DNA from: Candidatus Desulfaltia sp.
GTDB lineage: Bacteria; Desulfobacterota; Desulfobacteria; Desulfobacterales; ETH-SRB1
Assembly (NCBI GenBank): GCA_030656555.1
Contig: JAUSPN010000081.1
Location: 1-49,014, forward strand
Length of the DNA: 49,014 nt
Direction: 5' to 3'
Shown: positions 8,329-42,493 of the stretch, piece by piece
How positions within the stretch are numbered: position 1 is the stretch's first letter
Layout: each line of letters opens with the position of its first letter
Notes under the pieces: generated by a model
Database searches by the model: none
What the model saw: only the letters and a program-made list of their open reading frames with translations
What the model was told of the DNA's origin: nothing
Translations under genes and position numbers: made by a program

Positions 8329-8340
8329 TTTGTGAAAAAG

Positions 8341-8433
8341 CTATTAGCCATTAGCTGTTAGCTCTTAGCTAAAGGTGTTATCTGTTTGATTTTTTAAGCT
8401 AAAGGCTAATTGCTAAAAGCTAAAAGCTAAAAG
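8341..8433. repeat. Heptad short tandem repeat (TTAGCTN / GCTAAAA), inverted halves
   Basis: The left half is TTAGCCA TTAGCTG TTAGCTC TTAGCTA (period 7). The right half is GCTAAAA repeated three times (period 7) and is the complement of the left, so the unit can fold on itself. It lies in the convergent gap between the MBL gene and the ntrX-like gene and could act as a two-way terminator, though no clear T-run is present. Confidence 0.75.
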
Positions 8434-8498
8434 TCCTCAATTTAAGAATAGAATCCAACTAACTATAATTTCAGGTGTTTTGAGTTTTCGTCCAAAAA

Positions 8499-9854
8499 CT
8501 AATTGATACTTTTAAGCTTTTTATACAGGTAGCTTTGCTTAACCCCTATTGATTCGGCTGTTTTTGCAACATTATTATCGTATTGCAAAAGTTTTTTTTG
8601 GATAAATGCTTTTTCAAAGGCTGTTTTTGCATCCTTTAAGCAATCGATTATAAATAACTGCGATTCAACAAGCCCCAAACCTTCCCCAATGTTTGAATTA
8701 TATGGCGCAGGTATATCGGAAACATCAATTATATCGTTTTCCGTCATGATAGCCATCCGCTCCACAAGATTCTTCAGTTCTCTGACGTTTCCCGGCCATG
8801 AATAAGAACATAAGATGTCGAGCGCTTTCGTGGTTATCTTCTTTCTTTTGCTGTGATTTTGTTTTATGCTTTCATCTAAAAAGGTTTCAACAAGAAGCGG
8901 AATATCCTCGCGACGATTCTTAAGGCTTGGGACTTCGACAGGTATTACATTCAGCCGAAAGTAAAGATCCTCTCTAAAACTTCCCTTTTCAATCTCCTTT
9001 TCAAGATCTTTGTTGCTGGCAGCAATTACCCTGGCATTGAAACTTAATGTTCTGCTTCCTCCGACACGCTGGAATTTTTGTTCCTGCAAAACTCGAAGAA
9101 TTTTGGCCTGAGTCTTTAAACTCATATCCCCTACTTCATCAAGGAAAATAGTTCCATTGCTTGCCAGCTCAAATTTGCCTCTTTTCTTGCTGGTCGCTTC
9201 AGTAAACACCCCTTTCTCGTGGCCAAACAGCTCGCTTTCAATCAGTTCTTCCGGAATTGCGGCGCAACTGACATCAACAAAGGTTTGATCCGCTCTTGGG
9301 CTTAACTGGTGAATTGTACGCGCGACAAGCTCCTTGCCTGTGCCGTTTTCTCCTGTGATAAGGATCCATGCCTCTGTCGGGGCTGCAATCGCTATCTGCT
9401 TTTTCAGAGCCACTGTTGGAGAGCTGTCTCCGTTTATCGAGTGCTTTTCTATTGTCTTTTTCCGAAGATATCTGTTTTCCTCTTCAAGCCTCCTGAAATT
9501 TAGCGCATTATTAATCGCAACAATCACCTTATCAATCGAAAGCGGTTTTTCAATTAAATCAAACGCTCCAAGCTTTGTGGCTTTAACAGCGGTCTCTATT
9601 GTCCCGTGTCCCGATATTATTATTACCTGAATAAAGGCATTGTTTTTTTTTATCTCTTTTAATGTCTCAATTCCATCCATACCCGGCATCCATATATCAA
9701 GCAAAACAAGATCCGGCGACTCGCTATCGATAATCTTTAAGGCTTCATAACCATTGGTGGCTGTTATGACCTCAAAACCTTCATCATAAAGCAGACCGCT
9801 TAAAGACTGGAGTATGGATGGTTCGTCGTCAACAATTAGAACAGATGGGAACAT
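8499..9854 (-). CDS. ntrX: NtrX-type response regulator with variant GAFTGA loop
   Basis: 451 residues: a receiver domain (1-120) with the phospho-acceptor D53 in LVLLDIWMPGMD, an AAA+ domain with Walker A GENGTGKE (169-176) and Walker B FLDEVGD, and a C-terminal Fis-type helix-turn-helix (TAESIGVKQSYLYKKL). It follows the kinase gene ntrY on the same strand, so it is the partner regulator of NtrY. ATG preceded by TAGGAGTTTT. Oddity: the sigma-54 contact loop, GAFTGA in canonical activators, reads GVFTEA (residues 215-220). NtrX proteins in other lineages do not always act through sigma-54, so this one may work as a conventional DNA-binding regulator. The other NtrC-family regulator in the window (39583-40986) keeps GAFTGA. 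Confidence 0.9.
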   Translation of the reverse strand: MFPSVLIVDDEPSILQSLSGLLYDEGFEVITATNGYEALKIIDSESPDLVLLDIWMPGMDGIETLKEIKKNNAFIQVIIISGHGTIETAVKATKLGAFDLIEKPLSIDKVIVAINNALNFRRLEEENRYLRKKTIEKHSINGDSSPTVALKKQIAIAAPTEAWILITGENGTGKELVARTIHQLSPRADQTFVDVSCAAIPEELIESELFGHEKGVFTEATSKKRGKFELASNGTIFLDEVGDMSLKTQAKILRVLQEQKFQRVGGSRTLSFNARVIAASNKDLEKEIEKGSFREDLYFRLNVIPVEVPSLKNRREDIPLLVETFLDESIKQNHSKRKKITTKALDILCSYSWPGNVRELKNLVERMAIMTENDIIDVSDIPAPYNSNIGEGLGLVESQLFIIDCLKDAKTAFEKAFIQKKLLQYDNNVAKTAESIGVKQSYLYKKLKSIN

Positions 9855-9880
9855 ATTGTAAAACTCCTATATAAAAATTA

Positions 9881-9966
9881 GTAGCCGTTCACGGTTGTCG
9901 GTTCACGGTTCACGGTTCACGGTTTTTTCAACCGTGAACCGATAACTGTAAACCGTGAACAGTTAC
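9881..9966. repeat. GTTCACG heptad element, collapsed form
   Basis: 86 bp between the ntrX and ntrY genes, bounded by GTAGCCGTTCACGG and its near-complement CCGTGAACAGTTAC. The left half holds GGTTCAC in tandem with period 7, then GGTTTTTTCA, then ACCGTGAACCGATAACTG and the right end. The outer parts nearly match those of the element at 29921-30141, but here nothing lies between them. It separates two genes that are usually tightly linked. Confidence 0.8.
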
Positions 9967-9970
9967 AAAA

Positions 9971-12205
9971 TTACACAGGCAGCTCTATTACAAATTTGGC
10001 TCCCTGAGGCTGGTTATCCTGCACCTGTATCATGCCGTTATGATCAGCAACAATCGTGCTGACAATTGTCAGGCCTAATCCCATGCCTGTCTTTTTTGTT
10101 GAAAAATAGGGTTCAAAAAGACGTGTCTTGTCTTCATCGGAAATGCCCGGACCATTATCGGCAATCTCTATCCTAACAATCTTTAAGATAGGATCGTTGG
10201 TTAATGTAATCGAAATTTTGCCGTTTGCCTTAATCGAAGCAATTGCATTATCAACAAGATTAATCATTGCCTGCTTAATCTGCCTGCGATCAATATTTAA
10301 AGGCGGAATATCCTCATTCATGCTGATTTTGAAATTTATATTTTGAGGCCCTTCTTTGTATAGCGCCACGGTCTCTTCAATAATGGGCGGCAGGTCGCAA
10401 AGCTCTGGATTTGCCGCCGGAAATCTTGCAAACGCGGAGAACTCATTTACCAAGTCCCGAATCAAATCCACCTGATCAATTATCATCTGAATGCATTCCT
10501 CAAAAACCGGTTCATTTATCTGCTTTGAATATCTTCTTTTTAGACGCTGAGCCGAAAGAGAAACAGGAGTTAAAGGGTTTTTGACTTCATGGGCAATCCT
10601 GCGCGCGACTTCACGCCATGCAGCAATGCGCTGGGCCTTTTCCAGCTCCGTAAGGTCATCAAAAACCATTACTATGCCCACATGGTTTCCCGCATCGTCT
10701 TTAAGCGCATTAACATGCATCATAAAACTACGCTGCCCTCCTTCTATTGTTAATCTAAGAGGAAGGGTAACATGATCCTCACGGGAGCTGGTCAGATTGT
10801 CGATTATTTCTTCAACAAGGTTCAGATGCTGCCCTCTAAGCAGCTTTTTATAGTTTTTATTCAGCATATCCTTTGGTATAAGGTTGAGCATCTTTTCAGC
10901 AGACTTGTTTATCGTTGATATAAGCCCGCCTGGACCAAGAGTTATTACGCCGGCAGAAACATTCTTTAATACTATTTCCATATACTGCCGTCTTTTTTCT
11001 ATCTCAACATTTCGTTCTCGAAGCATACCCGCGGAAAGCTCCAGTTGTTCTCTGCTGACCCGCAAATCTTTTGTCATCTTATTAAATGAATCAACAAGAG
11101 TGCCGATTTCAGTATCAGCCACAGGGCCGATGCTGAAGCCCAAATCTCCTTCCGCAACTCTTCGTGTCCCCTCTGCAAGCTCCATGATCGGTATTGTGAT
11201 AGATTTCGCCAGAAAAAACCCAAACCATATAGCGCAAAAAACAACAAGCAGCGCCACTATTGAAAGGGTTATATAATAGGTTGTCTGGATCGGTTGCTTA
11301 AGAAGTATTATCTGTTGATATTCCTCAAAAGCTCTTGATATGGATGCCATCTTTTCAGAAAGATCAGGAGCAAGCAATACCGACAACACAACAAAGCCTT
11401 CGGCATCTGTGTATTTTGTGCCAAAAGGAATAGTTCCGATCGTTCTTATAAGCTCCCCTTCCGGAATTTTTTCAAAAACCGACCTTACCCCTTTTGGCCC
11501 TATATCCTTTTGAAAATTATCAGCAGAAACAACGCTAAAAGGCTTGTCTTCCAGCTCCCTAACCAGGGCAAATGTTAGGCGGTTTGCATTCAAGCTATAA
11601 ATTTCAACAGCATCAACATTAAATGCCCGGTGAACAACCTGTACATAGTGGGAAAGAGCGTTCATGTTTTGTTCAGCCAGAAGTTTTTTGGTGTTTATCT
11701 GGTAGGCTATTCTTTCCAGATAAAACCGGTTGTTTTCTTCTGCATGATCATACAAGCGCCTTCCTACAACCAATGAGTTTTCAAGAGACTGCTCTACGGG
11801 AACATTAAACCAAAATTCAATGCTGGTTGTAATAAAGCTGATTGAAAAGAAAAAAAGGACAATCGTAGGCAAAAGAGTAAGGGCAACAAAGGCGGCAACA
11901 AGTCTCGTGCGAAGCTTTGCCCCCATCACCTTGCGCTTTCTATCATAGAGCAACTTTACCAGATTTCTAAACACAAGAAATATCAATAAGATAAGCAGCA
12001 GCAAATTGATGTTGATTAATATAAACATCAATATTGTGTTAGAAATCGGAATCCCTGCCCCAAAATGTATGACCTTGTGCTCAGCATAGGTCATGAGGGT
12101 AATGGCAAAGGCAACTATGACAATCAGAACGCCTTCTCGTTTCCGCCTTTTGCGTTCCTCTTCTAAGATATGAGGTTTTGAACTTTTGAATATATTGTCG
12201 CTCAT
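9971..12205 (-). CDS. ntrY: NtrY-type membrane sensor histidine kinase
   Basis: 744 residues. Two N-terminal membrane segments (about 24-42 and 52-82) are followed by a third near 105-130, an extracytoplasmic region, and a further segment near 310-335. A HAMP domain (ELAEGTRRVAEGDLGF) and a PAS domain (GVITLGPGGLISTINKSAEKML) come next. The phospho-acceptor histidine, near residue 539, is in RRIAHEVKNPLTPVSLSAQR, and the HATPase domain shows N, G1 and G2 boxes (NLVDNAIAS, IADNGPGIS, GMGLGLTI). The layout is that of NtrY. It phosphorylates the downstream NtrX-like regulator; NtrY signals are linked to nitrogen and redox state in other phyla, while the signal here is unknown. A repeat element separates it from its partner. 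Confidence 0.92.
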   Translation of the reverse strand: MSDNIFKSSKPHILEEERKRRKREGVLIVIVAFAITLMTYAEHKVIHFGAGIPISNTILMFILININLLLLILLIFLVFRNLVKLLYDRKRKVMGAKLRTRLVAAFVALTLLPTIVLFFFSISFITTSIEFWFNVPVEQSLENSLVVGRRLYDHAEENNRFYLERIAYQINTKKLLAEQNMNALSHYVQVVHRAFNVDAVEIYSLNANRLTFALVRELEDKPFSVVSADNFQKDIGPKGVRSVFEKIPEGELIRTIGTIPFGTKYTDAEGFVVLSVLLAPDLSEKMASISRAFEEYQQIILLKQPIQTTYYITLSIVALLVVFCAIWFGFFLAKSITIPIMELAEGTRRVAEGDLGFSIGPVADTEIGTLVDSFNKMTKDLRVSREQLELSAGMLRERNVEIEKRRQYMEIVLKNVSAGVITLGPGGLISTINKSAEKMLNLIPKDMLNKNYKKLLRGQHLNLVEEIIDNLTSSREDHVTLPLRLTIEGGQRSFMMHVNALKDDAGNHVGIVMVFDDLTELEKAQRIAAWREVARRIAHEVKNPLTPVSLSAQRLKRRYSKQINEPVFEECIQMIIDQVDLIRDLVNEFSAFARFPAANPELCDLPPIIEETVALYKEGPQNINFKISMNEDIPPLNIDRRQIKQAMINLVDNAIASIKANGKISITLTNDPILKIVRIEIADNGPGISDEDKTRLFEPYFSTKKTGMGLGLTIVSTIVADHNGMIQVQDNQPQGAKFVIELPV

Positions 12206-12801: not shown

Positions 12802-12837
12802 AATATATAAGCGGTAATTTAAAAATCAGGGTGACAA

Positions 12838-12863
12838 TTAACTGTAAACCGTAACCGGTTACC
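12838..12863. repeat. Degenerate piece of the GTTCACG-family element
   Basis: TTAACTGTAAACCGTAACCGGTTACC resembles the right end of the element at 9881-9966 (ATAACTGTAAACCGTGAACAGTTAC) with substitutions. It lies in the lpxC to DUF4390 gap (12802-12943), which holds no gene. Confidence 0.45.
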
Positions 12864-29506: not shown

Positions 29507-29878
29507 TTAAAGCGGTTTATATGTTGCGCATGCGTCCTCTGTTTCCCATGCTGTTACACTTGTAACTTTTATGTCGTTGTTTTCTATTGTTCCTTGTAGT
29601 TTTTTTGCAATATAGAAGGCGATATTTTCAGAGGATGGATTGTTATCACGAAAAAAATCAAGTTCATTGAGGACACAGTGATCAAGCTTTGCTATAATTT
29701 CGGAAACTTGCTTCTTTATCTCTCCAAAATCAACTATAATTCCTGCGCTGTTTAAGCTTTTACTTCCCACACAAGCCTCAATTTTCCAGTTATGACCATG
29801 CATATTTTCACATTTTTTTGCTACCATCTTGAGCCGGTGGGCTGCTGCAAAATAGGTGATAACCTTTAACTCAAACAT
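29507..29878 (-). CDS. queD: 6-pyruvoyl-tetrahydropterin synthase family, QueD type
   Basis: 123 residues, the usual QueD length. Zinc ligands are in FAAAHRL (His near 14) and MHGHNW (two His near 28-30). A Cys in MVAKKCENMHGH matches the catalytic cysteine. DFGEIKKQVSEIIAKLDHCVLN carries the Asp/His dyad, and the C-terminal SVTAWETEDACATYKP holds the substrate-anchoring Glu. QueD makes 6-carboxy-tetrahydropterin from dihydroneopterin triphosphate on the way to queuosine. AAGGT precedes the ATG. It is convergent with pyrE. A small hairpin, GGTCTC/GAGACC, lies between the two stops. Confidence 0.9.
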   Translation of the reverse strand: MFELKVITYFAAAHRLKMVAKKCENMHGHNWKIEACVGSKSLNSAGIIVDFGEIKKQVSEIIAKLDHCVLNELDFFRDNNPSSENIAFYIAKKLQGTIENNDIKVTSVTAWETEDACATYKPL

Positions 29879-29920
29879 GTTTACCTTATATTGTAATGGT
29901 TTATGGTTCAGATGTTAAAT

Positions 29921-30141
29921 GGTTCACGGTTCACGGTTCACAGTTTTTTCAGTGAACTATACAAGGATTGAAGCATTTTGGATATTGATTTCAACTCTTG
30001 AATTAATTCTTTCGCATCTAAATCAGAAAATATATTAACCCCTCGTGAAATATTAATCTGTGTTCTCATATCCGCAGCCGATCCTTGTGCAATCTGTTTT
30101 TTTCAACCATAAACCGATAACTGTAAACCGTGAACAGTTAC
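29921..30141. mobile_element. GTTCACG-family element carrying a four-helix-bundle gene remnant
   Basis: The left side has GGTTCACGGTTCACGGTTCAC (period 7) followed by AGTTTTTTCAG. The right side has TTTTTTTCAACCATAAACCG, ATAACTGTAAACC and the end GTGAACAGTTAC. The outer parts match the collapsed element at 9881-9966. The interior holds the remnant at 29938-30102. Direct repeats of GTTTTTTCA border the interior, so slippage or recombination between them would yield exactly the shorter form. Confidence 0.65.
29938..30102 (-). pseudogene. Remnant of a four-helix-bundle protein (23S rRNA intervening-sequence protein family)
   Basis: The minus strand reads KKQIAQGSAADMRTQINISR, then GVNIFSDLDAKELIQELKSI and SKMLQSLYSSLKKL before TGA. 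IAQGSAADMRTQ followed by LIQELKSISKMLQSLYSSLK matches the third and fourth helices of the S23/IVP-like four-helix-bundle family (consensus of the type AKGSAAEVRTQ ... MLNGLIKSLK). The N-terminal two helices and the start codon are missing, and a TGA stands directly in front, so it is a fragment. Such proteins occur inside 23S rRNA intervening sequences and as orphan intergenic genes. Here the fragment is embedded in a short-period repeat element. Confidence 0.7.
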
Positions 30142-30150
30142 TCTTTATGT

Positions 30151-31263
30151 TTATCTGGAAACTGTTGTGTTAGTGCTTTTGAATATATTTTTTAATTTTG
30201 TCGACAGCTTGCTTGATTCGAGTTTCGCAAATTCCTTGAGAAGCTCTTCCTGTTTCCCGGAAAGATTAGTTGGTGTATTAATGACAATTTGCATTATCTG
30301 GTCGCCGCGGCTGCCATTTCTGAGAGAGGGTATGCCAAGGCCTGAAAAGCGCAGTATATCACCAGGCTGTGTGCCTTTGGGGATTTCGAGTTTCTTTTCA
30401 TGGTTTAATGTAGGCACCTTTATTTTATCTCCAAGCGTGGCTTGTATAAATGATATCGGTATCCGGCATATAACGTCCGTATTGTTGCGTTCGAAAAATT
30501 CATGGGGTTCTACACCAATAAAAACATAAAGATCTCCTGGAGGACCGCCGTAAAGCCCGGCCTCTCCTTCGCCGGTCAGACGAAGCCTGGAGCCTGAATC
30601 CACGCCTGCCGGTATTTTAACAGAAACCTTTTTGCTGACCATCACCTGTCCTGTCCCCTTGCAATTAGAGCATCGATGAGGTATGGACTGGCCGTGGCCG
30701 TGGCATGTCGGGCAGGTAGTCCTTACTGTAAAAAAACCCTGAGACCTGGAAACCTGGCCTGTGCCGCCACAAGGCCTGCAATTTTCCGGCTGTGTGCCCG
30801 GCTTGCAAGCATTGCCGTTACATGTAGAGCATACCTCCATCTTTTCAATGTTTATCTCCGTGTCTATCCCAAAGGCCGCTTCCATGAAGCTTAAGTTTAA
30901 ATTATAACGAAGATCCGCCCCTCTCTGAACCCTTGTTCTGGAACCTGTTGTTCTGAATCCGAAAAAATCTTCAAAAATATCCCCAAAACTTGAAAAAATA
31001 TCATCAAAACCACCGAACCCTGAAAAACCGGTTCCTTCAATGCCCTGGTGTCCATATTGATCATAAATATTACGCTTCTGTGGATCATGAAGCACCTCAT
31101 AAGCTTCGGCAGCCTCTTTGAAGCTTTCTTCCGATGCTTTGTCGCCGGGGTTTCTGTCAGGATGGTATTTAAGGGCCATTTTGCGATAGGCAGCCTTTAT
31201 TTCACTTGCAGAGGCATTGCGGTCTATGCCAAGAATTTCATAGTAATCACGTTTAGCAGTCAT
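30151..31263 (-). CDS. dnaJ: Chaperone protein DnaJ
   Basis: 370 residues: J domain (1-70) with the HPD motif in [11 protein letters not shown], a Gly/Phe region ([25 protein letters not shown]), a zinc-finger region with four Cys pairs ([38 protein letters not shown]) and the C-terminal substrate-binding domains. It stimulates DnaK ATPase and delivers unfolded clients. The first zinc repeat is slightly irregular, ending NGNA instead of xGxG, but all eight cysteines are present. dnaK and grpE are not adjacent. The repeat element 31283-31420 lies just upstream. Confidence 0.95.
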
Positions 31264-31282
31264 TTAGATTCCTGATATTATA

Positions 31283-31420
31283 AGCGTTCACGGAACGTTG
31301 AAATTAGAAAATGGAAATTGGAAATTTGGCCTTCATGTTTTTGTATTGTTCTCGTAAACTCGTTTCATCTCTTCCCAATTTCTACTTTCCAATTTCAAGT
31401 TTCAAGCCATGAACAGCTAC
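31283..31420. repeat. Nested heptad-repeat element (GTTCACG outside, GAAATTG inside)
   Basis: The outer ends AAGCGTTCACGGAACG and CATGAACAGCTAC are degenerate forms of the GTTCACG-family ends. Inside, GAAATTA GAAAATG GAAATTG GAAATTT (period 7, 31301-31326) faces the complementary CAATTTC TACTTTC CAATTTC AAGTTTC. About 50 bp between them show no gene. It lies between the dnaJ start and the ubiE start, so promoters of both genes must lie in or beside it. Confidence 0.7.
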
Positions 31421-31525
31421 CTGATGTTTTTACGGCTCTCATGTTGTCATAGCCTTTTTGATATGATAGATATATGTAACTTGAGTATTTAACTTAAAAA
31501 CATAATACATAAGGCATACTTGTCA

Positions 31526-37469: not shown

Positions 37470-39440
37470 ATGAAAAAACCAGCATTAAAAACCCAGTTTT
37501 ATATGGGAACCGCTTGCATCCTTCTGCTGTTTTGCGGTGGTGTATCTACCTTTGAGTATTTATATCTAAAAAAGATGGTTGCCAATTCCATATACAAAGA
37601 AACCGAAATCTATCTGGCTGCTGCTGAGGCATCGCGCACTTATGTCAAAGATATTTTAAGGCCCAGCATGAAAAAAATGCTGCCTCCGAATCAATTTCAT
37701 CTGCCTTCCATGTCCACATCCTTTGTAACACGAAATATTATGAGCAGAATTCAGGAACAATTCCCTGAATTCCAATATATAAGGGCTGCAAACAACCCGA
37801 GAAATCCTATCAATCAGTCGGACAGTTTCGAGCATAAGATGCTGCAATGGTTTACGGATAATAAAGACGAAGATCAATGGTCCGGAATTGTGAAGAAAAA
37901 CAGCGAATCGTTTTATGCTCGATTAAAACCTATCTATGTAGAAAAAGGATGTCTTTATTGTCATGGAAAACCTGAGGATGCTCCTCAGGAACTAAAAAAC
38001 ATATATGGTACCAGCAGGGGATACGGTTATGTTGTTGGAGATATCGTGGCTGTTGAGTCTATATACATACCTGTGGATGTGGCCTTTGTTAGAATAAAGG
38101 AAAAAGTCTGGTGGGATTTCCTGTTGGTGGCATTTTCCTTTTTCGTCCTTTTCGGACTTATGTACATCCTCTTCAACAATACGGTTGTATCTCAGCTCAA
38201 GGGTTTATTAACTACTTTCAGAAACATTCCAGGCAAAGACGAACATCTTGCAAAAGATGCAAAGCCGGAATCTGCCGATGAGATGGGTCAGCTCAGAAAA
38301 GAGTTTGAGAATGTCGCAAGCCACTTAAAACAGATTCATGAGGAATTAAAGGATTCCGAAAAAAAATATCGTTCTCTTTTTGAGGCTTCTCAGGACACTA
38401 TATTTATTTGTGATGTGGACACACGTATTATTGATATTAATGAGGCAGGGCTGAAGCTTTTCAAATTTGTTAGTCGAGCAGAGGTGCTTGCCGTTGAATC
38501 GTTTTATCAGCTTTTCTGGGATGCGCGCGATGCCTCTGCTCTTTTTGCAACCATTCAAAAAAAAGGTTTTGCCAGAGAACGAGAATATAACATGGTGGAT
38601 CGTGACGGAAAACGGATGCATGTTATGATAACGGCCAACGTGCGCATTGATGACAACGGTATGCCATGCGGATTTGAAGGAACGCTTCGAGATGTTACAG
38701 AAAAAAGGAGGCTTGCAAGATACCTTGCACAAGCTGAAAAAATGTCGTCCATCGGGCAGCTTGCAGCAGGCGTGGCTCACGAAATCAATAATCCTCTGGG
38801 AGTGATAGAGTGTTATGCAAATCTTATTCGGAAAGAATCGCGACCAGATTCCCAGGCGATAAAAGATATTGAAATTATAAAAAAACATACCTTGCAATGC
38901 AAATCCGTGGTGGAAGATTTGCTGAACTTTGCTCGTGTTTCTGAGCCAAAGATGGTCCAGTCGGATATCAATGCATGCATAGAAGACATTTTGTCTGTTG
39001 TGGAACGACAAATGAATAAAGAGAATATCACTGTGCAGCGAAAATTCTCTCCTGATATTCCATTAATAACGATGGATGTTCAAAAGATGAAACAGGTATT
39101 TATGAATCTTATCATGAATGCGGGACAGGCTATAGAAAAAGACGGGGTAATTATTATTGTCACAGAATTTCAAAAAAAAGACAACCTTGTTGTCATTCAT
39201 GTTGAAGATACCGGATGTGGTATAGCTAAAAAAGATATTGATCAAATATTTGATCCTTTCTTTACCACTAAGGAGGTAGGAAGCGGAACAGGTCTTGGGC
39301 TTTCGGTAAGCTACGGGATCATAGAACAGCATCGAGGACAAATACGTGTAAAGAACGCTCAAGGCAGGGGGAGCGTCTTTACAATCATTCTTCCTGCAAC
39401 CGATACGGAAAATGGCAGCCGTTCACGGTTTGAAACTTGA
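37470..39440 (+). CDS. Sensor histidine kinase with c-type-heme DUF3365-like sensor domain
   Basis: 656 residues from ATG 37470 (the frame also opens at a TTG at 37455). A first membrane helix (FYMGTACILLLFCGGVSTF) precedes an extracytoplasmic domain of about 175 residues resembling the Tll0287/DUF3365 type, with IRAANNPRNPINQSDSFE and a heme-c motif CLYCH near 161-165. A second helix (FLLVAFSFFVLFGLMYILF) leads to a HAMP-like linker, a PAS domain (FEASQDTIFICDVDTRIIDI), the H-box AAGVAHEINNPLGVIE (His near 437) and an HATPase domain (NLIMNAGQAI, GTGLGLSV). It should sense redox state or a heme ligand outside the membrane. The last codons lie inside a repeat element. Confidence 0.9.
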   Translation: MKKPALKTQFYMGTACILLLFCGGVSTFEYLYLKKMVANSIYKETEIYLAAAEASRTYVKDILRPSMKKMLPPNQFHLPSMSTSFVTRNIMSRIQEQFPEFQYIRAANNPRNPINQSDSFEHKMLQWFTDNKDEDQWSGIVKKNSESFYARLKPIYVEKGCLYCHGKPEDAPQELKNIYGTSRGYGYVVGDIVAVESIYIPVDVAFVRIKEKVWWDFLLVAFSFFVLFGLMYILFNNTVVSQLKGLLTTFRNIPGKDEHLAKDAKPESADEMGQLRKEFENVASHLKQIHEELKDSEKKYRSLFEASQDTIFICDVDTRIIDINEAGLKLFKFVSRAEVLAVESFYQLFWDARDASALFATIQKKGFAREREYNMVDRDGKRMHVMITANVRIDDNGMPCGFEGTLRDVTEKRRLARYLAQAEKMSSIGQLAAGVAHEINNPLGVIECYANLIRKESRPDSQAIKDIEIIKKHTLQCKSVVEDLLNFARVSEPKMVQSDINACIEDILSVVERQMNKENITVQRKFSPDIPLITMDVQKMKQVFMNLIMNAGQAIEKDGVIIIVTEFQKKDNLVVIHVEDTGCGIAKKDIDQIFDPFFTTKEVGSGTGLGLSVSYGIIEQHRGQIRVKNAQGRGSVFTIILPATDTENGSRSRFET

Positions 39441-39458
39441 AATCCGTAAACGCTTACC
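39415..39458. repeat. Degenerate GTTCACG-family element overlapping the kinase 3' end
   Basis: GCAGCCGTTCACGGTTTGAA and ATCCGTAAACGCTTAC match the two ends of the element at 9881-9966. The kinase's last eight codons (GSRSRFET, stop) are read from its left arm. Confidence 0.55.
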
Positions 39459-42437: not shown

Positions 42438-42493
42438 ATAACCGTGAACCTAACAACCACTTTGCCAGTCAACTACTCGACCGCTTGACTAAG
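42438..42493. repeat. Fused pieces of two short-period repeat families
   Basis: AACCGTGAACCTAACAACC (a GTTCACG-family end) is followed by AGTCAACTACTCGACCGCTTG, the ACTCGAC family of 7346-7401. It lies in the gap between the divergent glcF-like and glycosyltransferase genes (42367-42523), which must also contain their promoters. Confidence 0.5.

Follow-up and report, generated by a model that had tools for sequence, protein, structure and literature searches.

The spacer between dnaJ and a queD-like gene in the stretch of DNA analysed here (the window, 49,014 nucleotides) contains a short coding remnant of the S23/IVP four-helix-bundle family enclosed by arrays of the heptad GTTCACG, raising the question of what kind of structure this is and whether it belongs to a wider family. 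An earlier note on this DNA had described such a remnant between GTTCACG arms with complementary ends, and this was confirmed by profile matches (PF05635, TIGR02436) together with a reading of the arms. The interpretation favoured here, with a probability of roughly 0.7, is that positions 29882-30142 hold the degraded remains of a mobile element, small and widespread, in which an S23 gene lies between inverted heptad arrays.

Table 1. Positions of the insertion, its neighbouring genes and related elements in the window
Feature	Position	Strand	Remarks
queD-like PTPS gene (PF01242)	29507-29878	-	Gene family match
Whole insertion	29882-30142	-	Flank matches in congeners G002 and G005: 9 bp against 261 bp in the window
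Heptad arm GTTCACG, 3' arm of the minus-strand gene	29921-29946	.	
S23/IVP four-helix-bundle gene remnant, C-terminal half	29938-30102	-	PF05635 E 1.9e-6, TIGR02436 E 5.6e-7
Direct repeat GTTTTTTCA bordering the cargo	29943-29951	+	Matched by GTTTTTTTCA at 30096-30105, which is longer by one T
Complementary heptad arm ending ...GTGAACAGTTAC, 5' arm of the gene	30111-30141	.	
dnaJ	30151-31263	-	Gene family match
Arms-only element, unit TTAGCTG / GCTAAAA	8339-8433	.	Unoccupied site in G002 and G005; G001 and G003 carry GTCGAGT arms
Arms-only element GTAGCCGTTCACGG..CCGTGAACAGTTAC	9881-9966	.	Between sigma-54 response regulator and histidine kinase genes; site empty in G004
Degenerate single arm (AATTAACTGTAAACCGTAACCGGTTAC)	12836-12862	.	
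Internally deleted S23 element of the L008 subfamily, GGAAATT arms	31280-31420	-	Aligns to L008 by blastn as two blocks (E 1e-23, 1e-17)
Short degenerate copy GCAGCCGTTCACGG..CCGTAAACGCTTAC	39415-39457	.	
Degenerate GTTCACGG fragment adjoining a GTCGAGT-type half arm	42438-42450	-	

The insertion and its counterparts in the window and in congeners

The open frame of the remnant encodes 54 amino acids and matches positions 63-105 of the 106 in the PF05635 profile, and was thus identified as the C-terminal half of an S23 protein; as the N-terminal half is absent, this copy is taken to be dead. Its PF05635 score of 28.5 bits lies under the curated cut-off of 33.8, and its TIGR02436 score of 29.7 bits lies over the cut-off of 24. 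Sequences within two mismatches of GGTTCACGGTTCA number 11 in the window, where 0.60 would be expected, and none of 100 shuffles reached this count. On the host draft genome of the window (G000; 2.73 Mb, 107 contigs), 13 PF05635 matches were identified at 12 places, with 11 of the 13 above the PF05635 cut-off. The remnant element lies outside 23S rRNA, and at Rfam gathering scores only two tRNAs were identified in the window.

Comparison with congeners showed the dnaJ-queD spacer to be empty in two of seven (G002 and G005). The extent of the element, given in the earlier note as 29921-30141, was accordingly revised to that of the whole insertion in Table 1. The others were found to be occupied in different ways, with GTTCACG-type elements in G003 and G004 (the copy of G003 being interrupted by a contig end), GAAATTA arms within GTTCACGG ends along with the tail of another S23 subfamily in G006, and GTCGAGT-type arms with no gene in G001. 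The site of the 9881 element, empty in G004, is nearly so in G002 (26 bp), and holds GGTTCAG-type arms with the same ends in G003, GGGATTGA-type arms in G001 and G005 and CATCGAA-type arms in G006. At the 8329-8505 site a one-sided remnant was found in G004. Empty orthologous sites, the search for which the earlier note had suggested, were therefore found at the dnaJ-queD, 9881 and 8329 spacers. The TTAGCTG element at 8329-8505, which the earlier note does not list, sits between two genes, and similar stretches occur elsewhere in G001, G002 and G006.

A further spacer, next to a queA-type gene (PF02547), contains an S23 gene with GGGGTCA arms in G004, and also in G005 as far as the contig reaches; the same spacer holds other repeats in G000, G002 and G006. 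By the queA-type gene of G006 (L277, G006:C162:12760-13380), several heptad units were observed in a row, as if spacers gather elements. No empty site was identified for locus L006, for which a neighbouring match was present in a single congener and was occupied. Among S23 proteins at least 70% identical, 44% of 43 pairs have outer flanks in common (e.g. Flavobacterium L103, L111 and L141), indicating that some S23 loci are old and have been inherited in place across species, which speaks against rapid movement everywhere.

The element at 9881-9966 has a right arm nearly identical to that of the 29921 element and carries no cargo, as previously noted. It is flanked by AAAATTA at 9874-9880 and 9967-9973 (7 bp; 5/8 if read as 8). 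The repeats proposed to border the cargo of the remnant were confirmed (GTTTTTTCA and GTTTTTTTCA, Table 1), and the single GTTTTTTCA at 9922-9930 fits a deletion between them; judged by its sequence, the 9881 element is the product to be expected of a GTTTTTTCA-type repeat deletion in a 29921-like copy. The route from a full to a shorter form by simple deletion is displayed at the L006 site, where the element is intact in G000; in G003, by reading, the two arms persist and the interior of the gene has been lost between 8-bp GAAAAGTG repeats. Recognisable S23 DNA was found at 6 of 22 GGTTCACGG sites in G000 (from 30 of 57 matches); a seventh S23 match at such a site, L033, may belong to its neighbour.

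The degenerate copies that the earlier note had listed at 12838, 39415 and 42438 were recovered as short fragments. The one at 31283 was found to belong to another S23 subfamily with GGAAATT arms rather than to the same family. In this element (31280-31420) the first 6 codons are fused in frame to the last few (MKRVYENNTKT*); both arms and both ends are present, and the middle is gone. It is bordered by the target duplication CTGATATT (31272-31279) and CTGATGTT (31421-31428), which agree at 7/8 positions, and at 8/8 at the orthologous site in G001 and G003.

Inverted heptad arms, selection and orientation of S23 genes

The flanks of S23 genes were then compared for inverted 7-mer arms, as the earlier note had proposed. 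Loci were sampled from the 12 places in G000, from relatives (29), from viral contigs (29) and from the best 80 of at least 590 relatives in the genome_contigs set, the last spanning many phyla, including archaea, and being best matches rather than a random sample. The arm score was obtained by aligning the 250 bp upstream of a gene to the reverse complement of the 250 bp downstream, and 142 of the 150 loci were scored, with eight left out for short flanks. The median score of S23 loci was 22, against 10 (maximum 24) for 710 mismatched pairs and 10.5 (maximum 18.5) for 253 control windows. Enrichment was evident in that 95 of the 142 loci exceeded the 99th percentile of the pooled controls (7/12 in G000, 22/27 in relatives, 44/74 in genome_contigs and 22/29 in viral contigs), with same-strand flank similarity above threshold in 17/142. 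Of the 47 loci under this strict threshold, 11 were inspected by eye and at least seven of these keep degenerate heptads. A threshold on tandem score proved uninformative (15/142 exceed it) because control windows hold heptads too, and the complementarity score was used instead.

The periodicity of the arms was clear, with self-match at lag 7 of 0.383 against 0.274 when shuffled (z 41), further peaks at lags 14 and 21 (z 29.5 and 21) and a small peak at lag 8 (z 7.6). The G-rich arm, on the coding strand, lies 5' of the S23 gene in 91 of the 95 loci above threshold. By reading, the tandem units in G000 flanks are mostly inverted and differ by gene (GTTCACG, TTGGTCA, GAGGTCA, GGAAATT, GAATGTC and 8-base variants), and locus L004 of this genome has 9-base units in direct orientation. 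The units TAACTGA and TTGGTCA were also found as S23 arms (L067, L080, L005). Of 27 S23-matching plasmid records, ten were fetched, each of them cyanobacterial, and an arm score above 19 was obtained for eight of these, with two-sided heptads visible by eye in nine. A single S23 query of phage records gave no match. The earlier note had allowed that intact S23 genes elsewhere might lack such arms, or that the arms might occur solely without the gene; intact genes elsewhere were found to carry them, and some arms enclose the gene whereas others are free of it.

Two arrangements were observed besides. On plasmid pANA02 of Anabaena sp. 90 (L272), cas6 and cas4 are separated by an S23 gene, which a long array of GGTGACA adjoins. 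At L218 and L228, heptad elements are apparently nested within other S23 elements.

Relatedness of proteins was compared with that of their arms for 135 of the 142 loci after deduplication, using pairs with unrelated outer flanks. Arm sequence was common to the pair (score of at least 18) in 47% of 45 protein pairs at 65% identity or more, dropping to 6.5% at 55-65% identity and to 1-2% below 55%. Similarity of the arms to those of the nearest relative (at least 55% identity, unrelated outer flanks) averaged 14.1, against 9.4 to others (n=119, p 7e-7). The correlation over the whole matrix is weak (Spearman 0.118, permutation maximum 0.067), so that the tie between protein and unit is strong among near relatives only, and some close S23 proteins differ in unit (e.g. 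L044/L110). In 121 of 129 pairs, the two arms of an element resemble each other more closely than they resemble those of related elements, including pairs with different units, and the same holds for 30 of 37 unit-sharing pairs (mean 22.8 against 18.6), these pairs sharing loci in both counts. This indicates that arms tend to remain complementary as the unit drifts.

The ratio dN/dS was 0.03-0.16 in nine intact S23 pairs with finite dS (of 18 pairs, seven of which were synonymously saturated) and 0.42-0.47 in two pairs including a broken copy (L011, L010); on these ratios, the S23 gene is under purifying selection. Among 106 cellular S23 loci with both neighbours called (from mechanical ORFs), 84 lie in sense and five antisense to a co-directional pair, with 17 between genes on opposite strands. 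The S23 genes of viral contigs (L153-L181) were seen in one sense and 11 antisense positions among the 19 with both neighbours called, several of these being related; codon-position G+C backs the antisense phage genes as real in several viral contigs. In the fold predicted for the sense strand of the insertion, the arms pair and enclose the coding remnant (29882-30142, z -2.7), and the arms-only element at 9881-9966 gave z -8.0.

Insertion, proposed mechanism and alternative carriers

Direct repeats at the borders were counted for 27 copies of this lineage chosen by the ends GTAACCGTTCACGG..CCGTGAACGGTTAC, all of them GTTCACG-ended. An excess was found at length 8 only (z 8.4; absolute z of 1.1 or less at 4-7, 9 and 10), with six perfect copies and 11 copies at 7/8 or better, against 0.54 expected and a maximum of 4 in 500 shuffles. 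Four of the 27 represent an insertion already counted in a different species; with each insertion taken once, the 23 independent ones gave z 6.8-7.1, with eight at 7/8 or better and 3-4 perfect (shuffled 0.33-0.38, maximum 3). A looser set of overlapping candidates, 232 in number, had given z 3.0 at this length and was superseded by the strict one. Four strict copies carry an S23 gene of full length, and their duplications agree at 7/8 in L008 (452 bp), 6/8 in L197 and 4/8 in L001 and L204. S23 loci in general gave exact 8-bp duplications with strong ends in 0/37, 0/72 and 1/29 cases, the single one being a heptad-phase match, and the wider S23 sets were slightly enriched at 5-7 bp, for the most part in genome_contigs. 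With no 8-bp signal in those wider sets, the 8-bp mode of insertion is established for this lineage only. In this lineage, GTAACCGTTCACGG-type terminal inverted repeats, the 8-bp duplication and empty sites in relatives together correspond to what is seen for MITEs. A second end type (GTAACTACTCAGG / CCTGAGTAGTTAC) was observed to cap arms of several units in the genus and its relatives (L006, L049, L051, L219).

The full element consists of an S23/IVP gene of about 120 codons between inverted arrays of a 7-base (at times 8- or 9-base) unit, as a rule approximately 0.5 kb in total. Cellular copies mostly lie between co-directional genes and are read in their sense, so that in the transcript the arms can form the stem of a long hairpin whose loop holds the S23 frame. 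The S23 protein would serve the element, and its probable action is to bind the element's own arms in the form of hairpin RNA or single-stranded DNA, a role suggested by purifying selection and by the tendency of close relatives to have a unit in common. In this genus, insertion takes place at the DNA level with a stagger of 8 bp. Full and gutted copies alike may be inserted by a transposase that recognises their common end GTAACCGTTCACGG and acts in trans. Two S23 subfamilies have the outer ends GTAA[CG]CGTTCA in common, which suggests such action in trans.

S23 was identified in 49 of 58 relatives, and none of the candidate motors tracks it (RVT_1 in 31/58, Y1 in 54/58 and IS66 in 22/58); as drafts under-represent IS copies, absences of motors are soft. 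IS66 elements have ends starting with GTAA[CG]CG-like sequence and make an 8-bp duplication. An IS66-family transposase acting in trans in this genus would accordingly suit elements that start GTAA[CG]CG and have an 8-bp duplication, and three IS66 loci of relatives (L255, L256, L257) have GTAAGC ends. However, both IS66 copies of G000 (L264, L265) are without GTAACCG terminal repeats, and the family was not found in G001, G003-G006, G013, G030, G032, G052 and G056, drafts being prone to lose IS copies. With suggestive ends but no end-matching copy in G000 and a patchy presence, IS66 was not retained as the motor, and its involvement is regarded as doubtful. The shared outer ends of the two subfamilies would also fit arms that are REP- or MITE-type palindromes mobilised by a transposase of the host, Y1 (RAYT) or another, with S23 as an accidental passenger of some copies. 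This would agree with the frequency of Y1_Tnp genes in the relatives, with arms in G000 that lack recognisable S23 DNA outnumbering those that have it, with a GTTCACG element a few hundred bp from one G000 Y1 gene (L213) and with a one-sided tandem signal (16-17.5) at two Y1 loci. Against this, S23 is under purifying selection and is accompanied by inverted heptad arms across phyla, with units tending to be common to close relatives. Of the nine G000 Y1 matches, the six examined were without inverted arms (scores 10-15) and so without the flanking palindromes of REPIN/RAYT systems, and the S23-bearing genomes G024, G027 and G038 gave no Y1 match. Y1/RAYT was rejected as the carrier on these six matches, and an accidental association is considered unlikely.

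The orientation of cellular loci (84 against 5), the hairpin predicted for the sense strand and the co-variation of the arms would also be explained by an IVS-like RNA element whose transcript hairpin is reverse transcribed by a host enzyme and inserted, with S23 as partner of the reverse transcriptase. Avd, a relative of S23, is the partner of the reverse transcriptase of DGRs. Against this, RVT_1 was not found in G001, G003, G004, G009, G018, G030, G032, G052, G056 and G057 (drafts may miss genes), ten genomes that hold 5 to 23 S23 matches each, and fixed 8-bp duplications suit DNA transposition. Dependence on a reverse transcriptase was rejected on account of these S23-rich relatives, and retro-insertion is judged improbable. 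Least credible is that heptad arrays arise first, by replication slippage, and then receive or tolerate S23 genes. One-sided arrays free of S23 are common in viral contigs (see below), but empty sites are without both arms and gene, S23 arms are inverted pairs of fixed polarity, and the target duplications of GTTCACG-ended copies lie outside the arms. The mobile S23-heptad element remains the preferred reading of the insertion.

Heptad arrays without S23 and relation to known elements

Exact triple arrays in viral contigs were identified as 31 stretches of TTGGTCA, 104 of TAACTGA, 15 of GTTCACG and three of GGGAATC. S23 was present within 700 bp of none of these 153 stretches and in none of 401 distant windows, and the pipeline recovered all six known S23 loci used as a check. 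An inverted partner was found for 11 of the 150 TTGGTCA, TAACTGA and GTTCACG stretches. The TAACTGA stretches (L313-L416) are common in viral contigs, with no S23 nearby and an inverted partner in four only. Among 395 genomes of the phylum, a TTGGTCA-type triple was found at five sites in four genomes, with S23 at one of the five, this being L005 itself. The notion that all heptad arrays are S23 footprints was thus rejected for viral contigs and is weak in the phylum genomes; none of the 138 viral-contig stretches of the TAACTGA, TTGGTCA and GGGAATC families, nor the 15 of GTTCACG, had the S23 gene that a footprint would imply. There are, then, heptad arrays free of S23, be they relics or products of another process. 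The earlier inference that the intergenic repeats are footprints of an S23-bearing element is supported here by arms, empty sites and internal deletion, and cannot be extended to all heptad repeats given the viral result.

The label of IVS-like element holds for the layout and the protein family and fails for location, the element lying between protein genes. The 23S rRNA IVSs that carry an S23 ORF, such as that of Coxiella burnetii, resemble it in protein family, in complementary ends over the ORF and in small size, and have long been suspected to be mobile or selfish (PMC4990558). Ends that are complementary and close a stem above the ORF were likewise found here, by both arm scores and folds. 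The S23-heptad element differs from these IVSs in its place between protein genes and in arms made of tandem heptads. One exact 23S motif, run without a positive control, gave no match in 181 S23 loci. Warrier 2016 described the function and origin of IVSs as unclear and cited hypotheses of a mobile element (PMC4990558). Orphan genes annotated as "four helix bundle protein" (TIGR02436 / PF05635) are of the same family as the remnant, and the solved S23 relatives 2gsc and 2rld were each deposited with five chains. The IVP domain is named in a figure legend of PMC10910872, and four helix bundle genes are mentioned among strain-specific genes in PMC8700078.

Cyanobacterial STRRs are among the heptameric repeats of bacteria. 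The 7-bp intergenic units of two further reports, GGGAATC from Xanthomonas (PMC4692102) and the TAACTGA of Beggiatoaceae (PMC4679880), are also similar to the S23 arms; arrays of such units in viral contigs differ from these arms in being mostly one-sided and S23-free. Rehm 2015 reported inverted GGGAATC pairs numbering 70 in one Xanthomonas species and 75 in another, without a general association with mobile elements, and 90% of the heptad repeats lay between the same genes in both species, which counts against mobility (PMC4692102). MacGregor 2015 considered that a TAACTGA-binding protein might itself be the mobile element (PMC4679880). Neither "four helix" nor "23S rRNA" occurs in the text of PMC4692102 or PMC4679880. 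MITEs and REPINs are comparable in being short, with inverted ends and no transposase gene, and the copies of this lineage have 8-bp duplications; they are dissimilar in that full S23 copies encode a conserved protein under purifying selection. Among the literature matches listed (titles, openings of abstracts and passages, a body of text with preprints and most subscription papers outside it), no link between S23/four-helix-bundle genes and heptad arms was found, in agreement with the earlier note, which had not seen it described.

The results support the view of the S23-heptad element as an IVS-like element outside rRNA, and extend the earlier reading to a general rule that joins S23 genes and heptads. 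Tentatively, and with odds slightly short of even, S23/IVP genes may encode the protein of a large, formerly unrecognised class of small mobile elements in bacteria and archaea, in which each subfamily has a heptad "address" of its own, recognised by the protein in the mirrored arms, and the arms are kept matching as the unit drifts, with rRNA IVSs being those members that landed in rRNA. S23 genes are common, with at least 590 relatives in one scan of genome_contigs, and to our knowledge no job is known for these "four helix bundle protein" genes. If the general rule is true (a gene with inverted heptads, a unit common to close relatives and a package that is present or absent), S23 genes and rRNA IVSs would be seen as one mobile element, and some of the inverted heptad repeats between bacterial genes would be explained by S23 elements.
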